Shown here: in pieces, positions 1 to 4,816 of the stretch
How the letters are laid out: the number at the start of each line of letters is the position of its first letter
How positions within the stretch are numbered: position 1 is the stretch's first letter
Assembly (NCBI GenBank): GCA_013393545.1
Contig: JABXHG010000581.1
Span: 1 to 31,762 of the forward strand
Direction of reading: 5' to 3'
Length of the DNA: 31,762 nucleotides
Origin: Alteromonadaceae bacterium
Lineage (GTDB): Bacteria > Pseudomonadota > Gammaproteobacteria > Pseudomonadales > Oleiphilaceae
Notes under the pieces: model-generated
What the model saw: only the letters and a program-made list of their open reading frames with translations
Databases searched by the model: none
Told to the model about the DNA's origin: nothing
Made by a program: the position numbers and the translations under genes

Positions 1-122
1 GGAGGTGGAAATTGAAGTCGGGGTAGGCGTTAGAAATTGGGATGACAGGGATCTGGGTTTTTGCGTTGCAAAGTGGCGGAATAGTTACTTTGGCAAAGTG
101 TCTACTGAGACGGAGAGAAAAA
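1..122. other. Left edge, no recognised gene
   Basis: I recognise no gene here. Base composition is more AT-rich than in the rest of the window. A 28-codon plus frame from ATG 42 ends at TAA 126-128, inside the first core box of the attC site described next, which is where cassette genes often stop. Its product (ends LLRRREKS) matches nothing I know, and the frame is closed upstream by a stop at 24-26. It may be the decayed tail of a cassette whose start lies outside the window. Confidence 0.3.
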
Positions 123-376
123 TCATAACCAATGCAGGCACGGCGACGCCCACTACACTGCGCCTTCGGCTCCATTCCGCAGGCGCGCATGCTGCAAGCG
201 TTGAGGCTGTAGAAAAAGGTCGAAGATCTGTCTTGGGTCGAAATTGTTTAATAAATAAGCTAAAAATAGGGCCTATTCTTAAAATCTGAAGCACTTATGA
301 TTGAAAACACTTCCAGATTTTACGTAGGAACGCGGTCGGACAAAGGGGCGGGAGTTTTTCTACAGCCTCGTTATGG
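123..376 (+). repeat. Integron attC site, interrupted by a MITE-like insertion
   Basis: Removing 203-372 (insert plus one GTT copy) leaves an attC-like fold: R'' box TCATAAC (123-129), 3-nt spacer CAA, L'' TGCAGGCA (133-140), a variable middle with a GCGCC/GGCGC stem (160-164, 182-186), L' TGCTGCA (190-196), 3-nt spacer AGC, and R' GTTATGG (200-202 plus the bases after the insert). CATAAC pairs with GTTATG. L'' pairs with L' except for one extra G in L'', the extrahelical base that marks attC sites. The layout, with a 3-nt spacer and the extra base after five pairs, matches the Vibrio cholerae repeat. The extra base lies in the left half, which points to plus orientation. Without the insert the site is about 84 bp, a usual size. 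It is recognised from structure alone. Confidence 0.72.
203..369. mobile_element. 167-bp MITE-like element inside attC
   Basis: The ends are a perfect 15-bp inverted repeat: GAGGCTGTAGAAAAA (203-217) and TTTTTCTACAGCCTC (355-369). The element is flanked by GTT at 200-202 and 370-372, consistent with a 3-bp target duplication. It is too short to encode a transposase, so it would be a non-autonomous element or a deletion remnant of an IS. The middle holds an AT-rich stretch and an internal palindrome (TAAAATCTG 280-288 with CAGATTTTA 314-322, extended by AAG/CTT across a one-base bulge). The ends recall those of DDE-transposase IS elements ending in TTTTTC(A/T)ACAGCCTC, but I cannot name the parent. 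Confidence 0.65.
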
Positions 377-381
377 GGTAA
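370..381. repeat. 12-bp inverted repeat, left copy (cassette boundary)
   Basis: GTTATGGGGTAA here is the exact reverse complement of TTACCCCATAAC at 883-894. The two copies enclose the toxin-antitoxin pair. A cassette begins with the last bases of its own attC R' box, and its attC begins with the complementary R'' box, so this pairing is expected at the two ends of one gene cassette. The toxin stop codon (TAA on the minus strand) lies within this copy. Confidence 0.6.
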
Positions 382-595
382 CCCGACGCCGCCAGTAGCC
401 TGGCTTTCTTGAGTGGTGGGCAAAAGCAACGACTATGATAGTTCGGTCTTTTTCGATGGTTATGAGCGAGAAAGGGAATCTACGGAGTATAAGCTGTCTC
501 GCCCCGGCTGCTGCGGCCTTGTAGGAAACTGGAACAATTGGCGGATTTGGTTCTTCGAATTCTGTGGCAGCTTCCCTGCTGACTCTTACTTGCAA
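371..595 (-). pseudogene. ParE/RelE-type toxin with internal deletion
   Basis: The 74-residue product has both ends of a ParE/RelE-superfamily toxin: an N-terminus VRVSREAATEFEE, and a C-terminal beta-sheet part with ILRRFPFSL, IVVAFAHHSRKPGYWRRR. Intact relatives have about 95-105 residues. Here the helical hairpin expected between these parts (normally an AxxWYExxxxGLGxxF-type stretch, about 30 residues) is missing, with the reading frame kept. Translation would begin at TTG 595, five bases after the antitoxin stop. The protein is probably inactive because the deleted helices build the fold and the antitoxin contact, but the frame is still open, so a shortened product is possible. The family call rests on motif recognition. 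Confidence 0.7.
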
Positions 596-600
596 AGTGA

Positions 601-837
601 TCAGCCTCCGATTCGAGCCCTGGCGCGGGACAAAACTTCCTTTGGATCAAGTAGCTCTGCTTCTCCTGACTCAATCTGCTGGATTCTTCGACAGATCTCA
701 CGATCCCAGGCCTCTACAACACTGTCCTCTTCAGGGCCGTCTAAACTGGCCATCAGGTCTCTGGCTAAACTAGCACGCTCTTGCTCAGAGAGGGTCAGGG
801 CAGCATTTCTTAGGGTTTCGAGCTCTACCGCAGTCAT
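601..837 (-). CDS. Addiction-module antitoxin (TIGR02574-like)
   Basis: A 78-residue acidic, helical protein of the small stabilisation-protein family that pairs with ParE/RelE-type toxins. Recognisable features are the N-terminal LSEQERASLARDLMASLD segment, the central VVEAWDREICRRIQQIESGEA and the C-terminal DPKEVLSRARARIGG. The start at 837 is chosen because GGAG lies eight bases upstream; the frame also extends to 861. The toxin remnant follows five bases after the stop, the usual antitoxin-first order. In a working pair the antitoxin would bind the toxin and often represses its own operon. Here the antitoxin looks intact while the toxin does not. Confidence 0.82.
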   Translation of the reverse strand: MTAVELETLRNAALTLSEQERASLARDLMASLDGPEEDSVVEAWDREICRRIQQIESGEAELLDPKEVLSRARARIGG

Positions 838-867
838 TTGACACTCCGTGGAGATAGGCATGAGTAA

Positions 868-896
868 ATGATGCAGGATGTTTTACCCCATAACAA
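868..896 (-). promoter_or_regulatory. Possible antitoxin promoter
   Basis: On the minus strand TTGTTA (896-891) and CATCAT (873-868) are spaced by 17 bases, each matching the sigma-70 consensus at four of six positions, about 30 bases upstream of the antitoxin start. The -35 overlaps the right 12-bp repeat. Toxin-antitoxin cassettes usually carry their own promoter. This is a weak, pattern-only call. Confidence 0.3.
883..894. repeat. 12-bp inverted repeat, right copy (cassette boundary)
   Basis: TTACCCCATAAC, exact reverse complement of 370-381. To its right I find no second complete attC fold: the sequence leads through a small hairpin into the 3' end of the phospholipase D gene, so if this was a cassette its far attC is truncated or this edge is the array boundary. 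Confidence 0.55.
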
Positions 897-921
897 GACC
901 AAAGACAGCGACAGCTTTTCC

Positions 922-940
922 GTTGCGGCCTCGCCGCAAC
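922..940. terminator. Hairpin just downstream of phospholipase D gene
   Basis: GTTGCGGC and GCCGCAAC pair over eight bases with a three-base loop. The hairpin starts 19 bases beyond the stop of the minus-strand phospholipase D gene. It could act as a terminator, but there is no T-run on either strand, so intrinsic termination would be weak. Confidence 0.35.
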
Positions 941-958
941 ACAACACACGCCTGCAAA

Positions 959-2515
959 CTAAAGATACTTCGCAATAGGCAGCCAGGACAGAAAACGGGA
1001 CTTCATTCTGGTCCAGAGCCCCACTTGCGGCTCGTGATCATAGCGCTCCTCCCCGGACTGCCAGATCAGGTCATCGTTCTCGTCCAGGCTTACCTGCCAG
1101 CTGTTTTCCGATGCCATGGCGTAGCGGATGTCGTCGGCTACGGTTTGGGCCATTTCCGGGCTGTGGATAATCAGAATCGTCTCTCCATTCAGGTAGATTG
1201 ACCGAAGGTTCACGTTGAAAGAGCCAATGAACAAGGTCTCCCGGTCAAACACCACGGCTTTGGAGTGCAGAGTTATTCCCCCTTGGCGGCAGGCTGCGGC
1301 ATCTGCCACCCAGCGCCAACAGGCGGGCGCATCGGGCCGCAATTCGTACAGCTCAATGCCATGTTCCAGCATCGCCCTGCGCCAGCGGGCGTAGCCCGAG
1401 TGGTTGGTCACCAGATCATTGGTGGCCAGGGAGTTGGTGAAAGCGATCACCGGCACCTCCGGATTGCCGAGGCCACTGGTGCCGTTCAGTTCTTCATCGG
1501 TAAGTATCAGATAAGCCGACTCAATCAGAATCTCGTTCTCGGCCGCATTCGCCAGTCGATACAGCGCCTGTGCGGTGGCTTTCGGGGTGTCGGCATCGAT
1601 TTCCGGATTATCCGGCAGCGGATCAAACACCAGTTCTGCCGGTGCCTGTGTCACTGTTGCCAGCAGCTGATCCAGATAATTCCGTGCCGCGTTCACCGTG
1701 GCCGGCGGTCTGGCCCGCAGGTCTGGTTTGTCGTTGCCCTCAGTTTCGACACTGGCCTGCCATGGCAAGGGTTCCCCCGGTTCCGGCTGGTACAAGCGGT
1801 TTAGCGGATAGGTCCAGGTGTTTTGCCAATAGGCCTGGAAGCTGTCGCCCAGGGCTTCAACCAGCGGGCCAAGCACCAGTACATCCCGGTCGCGGGTGTT
1901 CTGCAGCGGATCCTCGTCGAAATACTCGTCGCCAACATTACGGCCGCCGGCGATACCCGCTTGGCCATCCACCACGAAACTCTTGTTGTGCATGCGCCGG
2001 TTCACCCGATCAAAACTGGCGGCCAAGGAAAGCAGACGGCTAACCCCCGAGCGGGGCCGTACCGGGTTGAAAACACGCACGGTAATACCAGGGTGTGCAT
2101 CCAGCCCGGCAAACAGGGCCTCATTTCCAGCCAGGTTGATGTCGTCCAGCAGCAACCTCACCCGCACGCCCCGGTCAGCAGCGGCCATGAGGCGGCCGGC
2201 AAGGTAACGGCCGGTCTTGTCATCATTCCAGATGTAATACTGGGCATCGATGCTCTGGCTCGCCGCCTCAATCAGTGCCGCTCGGGCCAGAAAGGCCTCG
2301 CGCCCGGTATTGAGCAGGGCAAAGCCAGACTGGCCGCTTTGCGGGTCCAGGTGTCGGGTTCGTTGGTCAAACAAATATGAGTCAGCCACAATGTCAGCTC
2401 CCGAATCCTGGCTGTGTTCCAGCGGCGCCAGGCCGCCGGCGCAACCGGCCAGAAGCCCCGCGAACAGCGTAACCAGACATAGCCTGTATCCGCTGCGGAC
2501 TACCCCGGTGGTCAT
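959..2515 (-). CDS. Phospholipase D-family lipoprotein (cardiolipin synthase C-like)
   Basis: A 518-residue protein with a lipoprotein signal peptide (hydrophobic run from about residue 12, lipobox LAGC with Cys25), so it is likely anchored in an envelope membrane facing the periplasm. It has two HKD catalytic motifs: H176-x-K178-(x)4-D183 (HNKSFVVDG) and H417-x-K419-(x)4-D424 (HSKAVVFD), each followed by the usual G-(S/G)-x-N segment. Two HKD motifs in one chain make a full phosphatidyltransferase/phosphodiesterase active site. Size and layout resemble ClsC (YmdC), which makes cardiolipin from phosphatidylglycerol and phosphatidylethanolamine, but other PLD-type lipases are possible. It starts 16 bases after the stop of the tandem Usp gene, so the two are probably cotranscribed. 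No good Shine-Dalgarno precedes its ATG. Confidence 0.88.
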   Translation of the reverse strand: MTTGVVRSGYRLCLVTLFAGLLAGCAGGLAPLEHSQDSGADIVADSYLFDQRTRHLDPQSGQSGFALLNTGREAFLARAALIEAASQSIDAQYYIWNDDKTGRYLAGRLMAAADRGVRVRLLLDDINLAGNEALFAGLDAHPGITVRVFNPVRPRSGVSRLLSLAASFDRVNRRMHNKSFVVDGQAGIAGGRNVGDEYFDEDPLQNTRDRDVLVLGPLVEALGDSFQAYWQNTWTYPLNRLYQPEPGEPLPWQASVETEGNDKPDLRARPPATVNAARNYLDQLLATVTQAPAELVFDPLPDNPEIDADTPKATAQALYRLANAAENEILIESAYLILTDEELNGTSGLGNPEVPVIAFTNSLATNDLVTNHSGYARWRRAMLEHGIELYELRPDAPACWRWVADAAACRQGGITLHSKAVVFDRETLFIGSFNVNLRSIYLNGETILIIHSPEMAQTVADDIRYAMASENSWQVSLDENDDLIWQSGEERYDHEPQVGLWTRMKSRFLSWLPIAKYL

Positions 2516-3383: not shown

Positions 3384-3535
3384 CTTCCACCTCGCCATGA
3401 AATCACTATGCTTGTTATTGTGGCAGCTAACTTTATGATCTTGCGTTGCTGTGGCACATTTTTTCGCCTTGAATCACAGATATAGTGCCGCAAATCCAGT
3501 CGCTTGCGAACCCAGACCAATTGGAGTTTGAATAC

Positions 3536-4816
3536 ATGGATGATGTCGCCAGCCAGTTCCTGGCCAACAACCAGACTACTTTTCACCTGGCCATTGCCCT
3601 GTTGCTAGGTGCAATTGTCGGCCTGGAGCGGGGCTGGGATGCCCGTGACCAAAAATCCGGTGAGCGCATTGCCGGCATCCGCACTTTTTCGCTGGTCGGT
3701 CTGCTAGGTGGCATATCGGCGCTGCTGGCTGCCGAGATCACCGTCTGGGCCTTTCCGGTACTGCTGCTGAGCGTGGTTGGCATGGGCCTGGTGGCCTACA
3801 GCGAGCGCCTGGAACATATTCGGAATTTCAGCATTACCGGCCTGGTGGGCATGGTACTTACCTTCTGCTTCGGCGCGGTGGCCGTGGCGGTAGACCCGGT
3901 GATTGCCACGGCCTCTGCCGTCGTCACCGCCATCATCCTGGACAACAAAACGGAGATTCACGGCTGGGTGCAGAAGCTGCAATCCCACGAACTGGACGCG
4001 GCACTGAAACTGCTGCTGATCTCTGTAGTGATGCTGCCCCTGCTGCCGAATGAAAAAATGGGCCCGGGCGGCGTACTCAACCCGCGCGAGATCTGGTACA
4101 TGGTGGTGATGATTGCCTCCATCTCGTTTGTTGGCTACTTCGCCATCCGGGTGGCGGGCGCCCGTAAAGGCATACTGTTCACCAGCCTGTTCGCCGGGTT
4201 GAGTTCCTCCACCGCGCTGACTCTTCACTTTTCCCGGCAGGCGGCGAAAAATCCGGATTTCAGCCCGCAATTCGCTGCCGGCATCCTGATTGCCTGCGGC
4301 ACCATGTTTCCGCGCATTCTGATCTACTGCCTGATCATCAACACCGCCCTGCTACCCAGTCTGGTATGGCCGGTGGTAACCATGACAGCCCTGCTCTATG
4401 GCCCGGCCTTTCTGATCTGGCGCCGGCATGCCCGCCAGCTGCAGGTCAGCCAGCCAAGCCTGAGCCAGAACCCGCTGGATTTGTCCTCCGCGCTGGTGTT
4501 TGGTGTACTGCTCACCGGTATTTTGTTGCTGGGCGAGTTTCTCAAGAACAGCTTTGGTGATGCCGGTATTTACGCACTGGCCGCCACCTCCGGTGTGGCC
4601 GATGTGGATGCCATCACCCTGTCGCTGACCCGCATGTCCAACAACAACCTGGCCATGGACGTGGCAGTGATCGGCATTGTCATCGCGGCTGCCGTGAACA
4701 ATCTGGTGAAATCCGGCATGGCCTGGAGCATTGGCAACCGCCAGGCCGGCCTGATGGTGGGTGTTCCGATGGTTCTGTCGTTGGCGGCGGGCCTGCTGGT
4801 GGCTTGGCTGCAGTAG
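3536..4816 (+). CDS. MgtC/SapB family membrane protein with DUF4010
   Basis: A 426-residue integral membrane protein. The N-terminal part carries the MgtC/SapB signature (LLLGAIVGLERGW, then GERIAGIRTFSLVGLLGG) with several transmembrane segments. The larger C-terminal part (LLLISVVMLPLLPN through AVNNLVKSGMAWSIG) is the DUF4010 domain, with about seven more membrane segments. This architecture is common in marine and environmental proteobacteria. MgtC itself affects magnesium homeostasis and F-ATPase activity in pathogens, but the substrate or partner of the DUF4010 form is unknown, so I assign no specific function. The start at 3536 is preceded by GGAG at nine bases; a GTG at 3485 is also in frame. 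The stop lies three bases from the convergent alkB stop. Confidence 0.87.
   Translation: MDDVASQFLANNQTTFHLAIALLLGAIVGLERGWDARDQKSGERIAGIRTFSLVGLLGGISALLAAEITVWAFPVLLLSVVGMGLVAYSERLEHIRNFSITGLVGMVLTFCFGAVAVAVDPVIATASAVVTAIILDNKTEIHGWVQKLQSHELDAALKLLLISVVMLPLLPNEKMGPGGVLNPREIWYMVVMIASISFVGYFAIRVAGARKGILFTSLFAGLSSSTALTLHFSRQAAKNPDFSPQFAAGILIACGTMFPRILIYCLIINTALLPSLVWPVVTMTALLYGPAFLIWRRHARQLQVSQPSLSQNPLDLSSALVFGVLLTGILLLGEFLKNSFGDAGIYALAATSGVADVDAITLSLTRMSNNNLAMDVAVIGIVIAAAVNNLVKSGMAWSIGNRQAGLMVGVPMVLSLAAGLLVAWLQ

Follow-up and report, generated by a model that had tools for sequence, protein, structure and literature searches.

The 167-bp element at positions 203–369 of the window (the whole stretch of 31,762 nucleotides analysed here) is very probably a miniature, transposase-less copy from a group of IS1182-family insertion sequences (ISs) that favours integron attC sites and enters them at the R′ core, a reading given a probability of about 0.88. 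As judged from sequence, the group is characterized by common ends, a 3-bp duplication (GTT) where two cassettes meet, an autonomous partner with an IS1182 transposase, and repeated insertion into attC across genomes, and within the sampled lineage its transposase appears in a single orientation relative to attC. The earlier note on this DNA had described an attC site split at the R′ GTT by a short element with terminal inverted repeats; this observation is confirmed by the coordinates of the boxes and by homology to an intact site in Providencia.

The left part of the attC (123–202, plus strand) comprises the R″ box TCATAAC (123–129) followed by the spacer CAA, the L″ box TGCAGGCA (133–140), which carries one extrahelical G, the L′ box TGCTGCA (190–196) followed by the spacer AGC, and the GTT of R′ (200–202), which is also the first copy of the target duplication. 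The element, located by inverted-repeat search and end-pattern scan and left without strand assignment, begins at the next base, and its ends are perfect 15-bp inverted repeats, GAGGCTGTAGAAAAA at 203–217 on the plus strand and its counterpart at 355–369 on the minus strand. The second GTT (370–372) opens the remainder of R′, GTTATGG (370–376, plus strand), where the next cassette begins. The 15-bp perfect ends and the duplicated R′ GTT proposed earlier were thus both found in place. When up to 3 mismatches are allowed, these two are the window's only matches to the repeat, as against a mean of 0.35 in shuffled windows, of which 5/100 reached two matches. An ORF at 5–289 runs across the element, and 167 bp is too short for a transposase. 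Shortness, terminal inverted repeats, GTT duplication, siblings elsewhere, and an autonomous partner sharing its ends together place 203–369 among the miniature inverted-repeat elements (MITEs).

Removal of the element restored an attC, as had been predicted: in the joined flanks the bottom strand pairs both the R and the L boxes, and window positions 126–202 are identical at 74/77 positions to an uninterrupted attC on the Providencia rettgeri plasmid pCHS4.1-1. BLAST of positions 100–420 against plasmids matched the attC part and left the element unmatched; the match to pCHS4.1-1 spans 126–203, stopping at the first base of the element, and the Providencia site runs on into a different cassette. 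An uninterrupted version of this attC, whose absence the note would have counted against its reading, therefore exists next to another downstream cassette, and an empty site with both of the window's neighbouring cassettes was not found. The folding energy of the joined attC was ordinary (−18.6 kcal/mol, z −1.16 versus shuffles). Folding energy was dropped as proof of attC, being non-significant for the joined, the interrupted, and the known Providencia sites, and the identification of the joined site hence rests on boxes and homology. Calls of attC were made by a box-pairing score with controls in place of a covariance model, and the window's own attC scored 7.5. A scan of window positions 1–1000 detected no promoter, and no outward promoter is claimed; three terminators were predicted in the same interval, against a shuffle mean of 1.5. 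The window gave no Rfam match at gathering thresholds.

Copies of the element at other attC sites, which the earlier note had proposed to search for, were recovered by scanning a genome collection and scoring the flanks. A sibling, L134:424–590 from genome G162, is identical at 143/167 positions over the full element and is followed by a different cassette, and the last 60 bases of its left flank match the window attC at 52/60 positions. Locus L144 showed 72% identity to the window element over 182 aligned columns, and three other 167-bp elements (L125, L128, and L093) have little in common with it except the ends. An unbiased scan was performed with a pattern of the two terminal repeats only, set 105–135 bases apart with flanks excluded, so that the detectable lengths were limited by the pattern. 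It retrieved 17 elements of 140–163 bp on 16 contigs, from beta- and gammaproteobacteria and one record labelled Deltaproteobacteria. Exact GTT/GTT flanks (or AAC/AAC on the other strand) were present in 15 of these 17; the exceptions were L012 (AAC/AGC) and L017, whose AAT/AAT flanks suggest that the target itself is what becomes duplicated. In the pooled, de-duplicated set, exact GTT duplication was found in 60/63 paired elements, a set in which one row (L128:396–2334) spans a tandem of MITE and IS; the numbers from the end-only scan are preferred because some pooled loci were found with a GTT-containing pattern. Among 293 genomes of the order of G010, the genome of the Halopseudomonas locus L013, the exact 15-mer repeat occurred in 44 at 112 places, of which 98 adjoin GTT/AAC and 14 do not. 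Nine genomes held non-GTT matches only, at one place each, and these are probably chance matches.

Beyond the repeats, an internal GATCGTY…ACAG…GAGG arrangement was seen by eye in many of the 156–160-bp elements (L004, L006–L009, L011, L012, and L014–L019); it may represent a cis signal, an RNA, or merely common descent. Comparison of the MITE with phage records gave just four weak matches to Acinetobacter phages (16–21% coverage). Four IMG/VR contigs classed as viral (L247–L250) carry a GTT-flanked end, i.e., CGTT plus the repeat. In genomes G012 and G206 several contigs start or stop inside an element, e.g., 81–98 and 105–119 bases from the end. Since contigs end inside elements, the repeats evidently break assemblies of cassette arrays, and such breaks are explained by these elements.

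The full-length partner was recognized from repeat pairs lying 1.76–1.85 kb apart that enclose a transposase of ∼510–527 aa; its ends are near-identical to those of the short elements and its target is identical. The transposases of L050 and L052 scored 285.7 and 288.8 bits against the IS1182 HMM NF033551 (cut-off 270) and contain DDE_Tnp_1 and DDE_Tnp_1_6 domains; the decayed L058 fell below the cut-off (90.4 vs 270 bits), and other partners were assigned by 39–100% identity to the L115 transposase, not by NF033551. Residues D141, D297, and E460 (L050 numbering), which we take to be the catalytic DDE residues, are invariant in 10 aligned proteins. A route by which MITEs can arise is illustrated by decayed shorter copies (L058 and L060) and by L103, a 399-bp internal-deletion form of the IS in which 341 bases align to a full copy at 80% identity. 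The complete chromosome of G266 harbors six full IS copies. Two protein searches returned at least 7979 and at least 7923 relatives of the transposase, with Marinobacter, Halomonas, Halopseudomonas, Oceanospirillum, Nitrincola, and Alteromonas among the named hosts in the matches listed. Other IS1182 members that were compared have ends different from those of the GTT-flanked group. Phylogenetic analysis parted 12 GTT-flanked transposases from 6 other IS1182 proteins on a branch with 100/100 support, the groups having been picked by their ends and long branches being flagged; L126 and L155 (2/14 proteins) were left out as shorter than 350 aa.

The target was evaluated on 184 distinct ends of the pooled loci, of which 86 adjoin GTT, 80 AAC, and 18 other triplets. 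The base preceding GTT was C in 83/86 cases, and the base after it was A in 72/80 and G in 8/80. The attC score used here rates the R″/L″/L′ architecture with realistic spacers. Of the 86 flanks on the GTT side, 53 scored ≥6 and 37 scored ≥8; among 3429 random GTTs from these loci, a control that itself includes real attC sites, the corresponding shares were 5.05% and 0.76% (Mann-Whitney p = 3e-22). With the control limited to GTTs after C or before a purine, ≥8 was attained by 1.11% of 1975 sites, as compared with 37/86 flanks. An earlier, cruder score was replaced, its contrast being weaker (≥8 in 11/41 vs 2.6%). So that loci would not be selected through their ends, a further search of the 293 genomes started from the L115 transposase, which matched at E ≤ 1e-40 in 39 of them with 39–100% identity; from the 74 match rows listed, 50 loci were taken up, ends were taken as the best repeat match with ≤4 mismatches, and repeated 12-base flanks were removed. 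In this set, upstream ends lay at GTT in 38/39 cases, downstream ends at AAC in 41/43, and both in 31/33, and 27/36 flanks of sufficient length scored ≥6. The repeat varied among these loci (GAGGCTGTAGATTTT, GAAGCTGTCGAAAAA, and CAGGCTGTAGGAAAA) and the target remained constant. As GTT lies upstream and AAC downstream, the transposase reads away from attC, along the cassette direction. Among pooled elements with a transposase sequence, 20/23 share this orientation; the 3/23 that are opposite (L050, L052, and L157, the Catenovulum copy) form one lineage in the tree. The group enters attC repeatedly at the same base, usually in the same orientation.

Flanks scoring <6 (33/86 pooled and 9/36 in the transposase-based set) were a mixture of degenerate attC sites missed by the crude score, as in L134, which scored 3.0 despite its 52/60 identity to the window attC, and of true exceptions. 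The flanks of L117, L118, and L127 contain nothing attC-like and show GGCGTTR-like sites, so attC is a preferred and not an obligatory target. The association with integrons was also visible at the genome level. Integron integrase (TIGR02249, E ≤ 1e-30) was detected in 158 of the 293 genomes, namely, in 30/35 of those with a GTT/AAC-flanked end and in 128/258 of the others (Fisher p = 2.9e-5, kinship ignored). At a stricter E-value near the TIGR02249 cut-off (128 genomes, or 129 by the search's own count), the proportions were 26/35 and 102/258 (p = 9.8e-5, kinship likewise ignored). At E ≤ 1e-30, 5/35 carriers had no integrase match. Three elements lie near the integrase gene in the arrays of G091 and G266, and the G091 array beside intI contains 8 scored attC sites on one strand, 2 of them with an IS at the GTT.

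The presence of GTT on both sides of the element at the integrase crossover position, as for an inserted cassette, would also fit an ORF-less mini-cassette placed by the integron integrase. This explanation is highly improbable, since a DDE-type transposase of the IS1182 family is encoded in the full-length forms, which share the target and have near-identical ends, the ends of the element are true 15-bp inverted repeats, and some copies are located at GTT outside recognizable attC (L117, L118, and L127); no CGTT site in the window scored ≥8, a threshold that also misses weaker sites, the window's own attC (7.5) among them. The insertions of these three loci at GGCGTTR-like sites would instead be expected of an IS1182 group that seeks GTT or palindromes in general, attC being enriched because it is a hairpin ending in CGTTR, and IS1272 of the same family seeks stem-loops of unrelated sequence (PMC5678879). 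Such general seeking is considered unlikely, as attC-like flanks were far more frequent than among random GTTs of the same loci, including C-preceded and purine-followed ones, and as the orientation is fixed relative to attC.

For the preferred reading, insertion of an attC-preferring IS1182 MITE, the following course can be proposed. A transposase supplied in trans would excise the element and cut the attC hairpin at its foot, the two strands being opened 3 nt apart on either side of GTT (C^GTT in the top strand), with probable recognition of the folded site plus CGTTR. Recognition of structure is suggested by the poor conservation of attC outside R′ and by the targeting of a stem-loop by IS1272 (PMC5678879). 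The integron integrase cuts between G and TT of that same GTT (PMC8876359). With the duplicated GTT and the terminal GAG, the upstream cassette would retain a core site; the element would then be expected to move with the downstream cassette, as its 5′ leader, and cassette mobility would not be abolished.

The junctions were analysed in 37 paired elements having GTT on both sides and an attC score ≥6, with L068, a 60-bp pairing, left out. Because the element starts with GAG, the left GTT reads on as GTTGAG, which fits GTTRRR. R′ positions 4–6 were all purine in 35/37 cases at the element junction versus 17/37 with the natural neighbour, and the full GTTRRRY was found in 3/37 versus 13/37. The mean R″/R′ pairing at positions 4–7 decreased from 1.84 to 1.11 of 4 at the element junction (p = 0.005), and that of the window from 3 to 1 of 4. 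The attC may hence be weakened, as the seventh base rarely fits and the R″/R′ pairing falls, and a GTTGAG site at the junction, even if weaker, would not necessarily be inactive. Two elements in tandem with a single GTT between them were observed in L128 (396–2334) and L230. We tentatively propose, at somewhat less than even odds, that these transposons live in integrons without breaking them: GTT duplication and GAG would rebuild the GTTRRR core, the upstream attC would stay usable, the element would serve the downstream cassette as a mobile 5′ leader, spread both by the integron integrase and by its own transposase, and the attC would be open to further insertions, as the tandem cases hint. 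The opposite outcome, proposed in the earlier note, is that insertion locks the cassette by parting the halves of the hairpin, and it is an equally tentative possibility. R′ bases 4–7 are indeed displaced by 167 bp, and the drop in R″/R′ complementarity is in agreement with a lock; to this extent the predicted separation held. It did not hold for R″, L″, L′, and GTT, which remain whole on the left of the element. The duplicated GTT keeps L″, L′, and GTT together and GTTRRR is retained in 35/37, the intact site of Providencia also pairs poorly beyond GTT, hardly better than the split one, and the tandems L128 and L230 would fit continued use of the target.

Short transposase-less elements near integrons are known by title from Gillings 2009, which reportedly concerns MITE-like structures flanking and mobilising a class 1 integron, and from the TIMEs study, said to deal with elements derived from Tn3 transposons; going by these titles, both differ from the present element in being non-IS1182 and in lying outside the attC core. 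Insertion sequences of the IS1111-attC group were reportedly treated by Tetu and Holmes in 2008 and by Post and Hall in 2009. IS1111-attC elements are not known to produce a target duplication. They are insertion sequences that likewise target one end of attC and, according to PMC11187229 and PMC12444791, possess a seekRNA-guided DEDD transposase and subterminal inverted repeats. The present group differs in its DDE-type IS1182 transposase and in terminal repeats beside a 3-bp duplication; membership in IS1111-attC was rejected, the partner bearing DDE_Tnp_1/DDE_Tnp_1_6 and the repeats being terminal. The group IIC-attC introns resemble it as mobile elements entering at attC, but according to PMC8876359 they are retroelements with a ribozyme; this assignment was discarded as no intron ribozyme was detected at Rfam gathering thresholds. 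In IS1272, of the IS1182 family, the target stem-loop or inverted repeat is replaced and no duplication is formed, according to PMC5678879. The likeness lies in the IS1182-family transposase (NF033551) and in a target that is a potential hairpin. In contrast to IS1272 as depicted there, one position in one hairpin class is targeted here, GTT is duplicated, and all attC boxes are present across both sides with no visible loss of attC, and stem-loop replacement of the IS1272 type was rejected on the duplicated GTT and the retained boxes. In PMC9137128, IS1182 appears alongside attC and integrons in a list of elements.

Searches of open-licence papers brought up no IS1182 group with MITEs that targets attC, and the present group could still correspond to a named ISfinder member; no ISfinder element name was among the names shown for the 120 transposase relatives listed, where names are partial and most rows nameless. 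Elements of other families that target attC and IS1182 members that target hairpins are already known, and what is apparently new is the combination of the two with MITEs. Integron arrays would thus host a further class of specialised parasites besides IS1111-attC elements and IIC-attC introns, and attC targeting would have arisen more than once since the IS1182 transposase family is unrelated. The group raises the questions of how a hairpin, folded from a single strand or present as a cruciform, is located by a DDE transposase and of whether insertions freeze cassettes or ride along with them. Programs that search for attC will overlook or misplace sites split in this manner.

The cassette downstream of the element extends over 370–894 (plus strand), its own R″ CCATAAC (888–894) mirroring the cassette start as an inverted repeat (TTACCCCATAAC at 883–894 vs GTTATGGGGTAA). 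It shares 82–83% DNA identity with a cassette on contig 13 of G293 (L082). In front of that cassette, at the identical base, a full-length element of the IS1182 type ends, its transposase C-terminus being followed by TTTTTCTACAGCCTC and then GTTATGGGG. Since L082 has a full-length IS where the window has a MITE, two different members of the group were inserted before one cassette type. At ∼1000–1080 of L082, a second right-end piece of an IS joins the next cassette (GTTATGCAG) with no left end; a deletion has apparently removed most of an IS along with a portion of an attC. On the minus strand of the window, against the cassette direction, positions 601–837 encode a 78-aa Unstab_antitox protein (PF09720, E 8.8e-11), an addiction-module component for which no partner was recognized within the downstream cassette. 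In the region 883–960, the R″ of the downstream cassette's attC (888–894) is present, and no matching L′/R′ was recognized before the phospholipase-D-like gene (959–2515); the cassette array of the window seems to end in a truncated attC. The window, which is very probably of Marinobacter origin, begins within a cassette array and continues with ordinary chromosomal genes, among them that of an MgtC/SapB-like protein (3485–4816), whose closest named relative is from Marinobacter persicus (94%).
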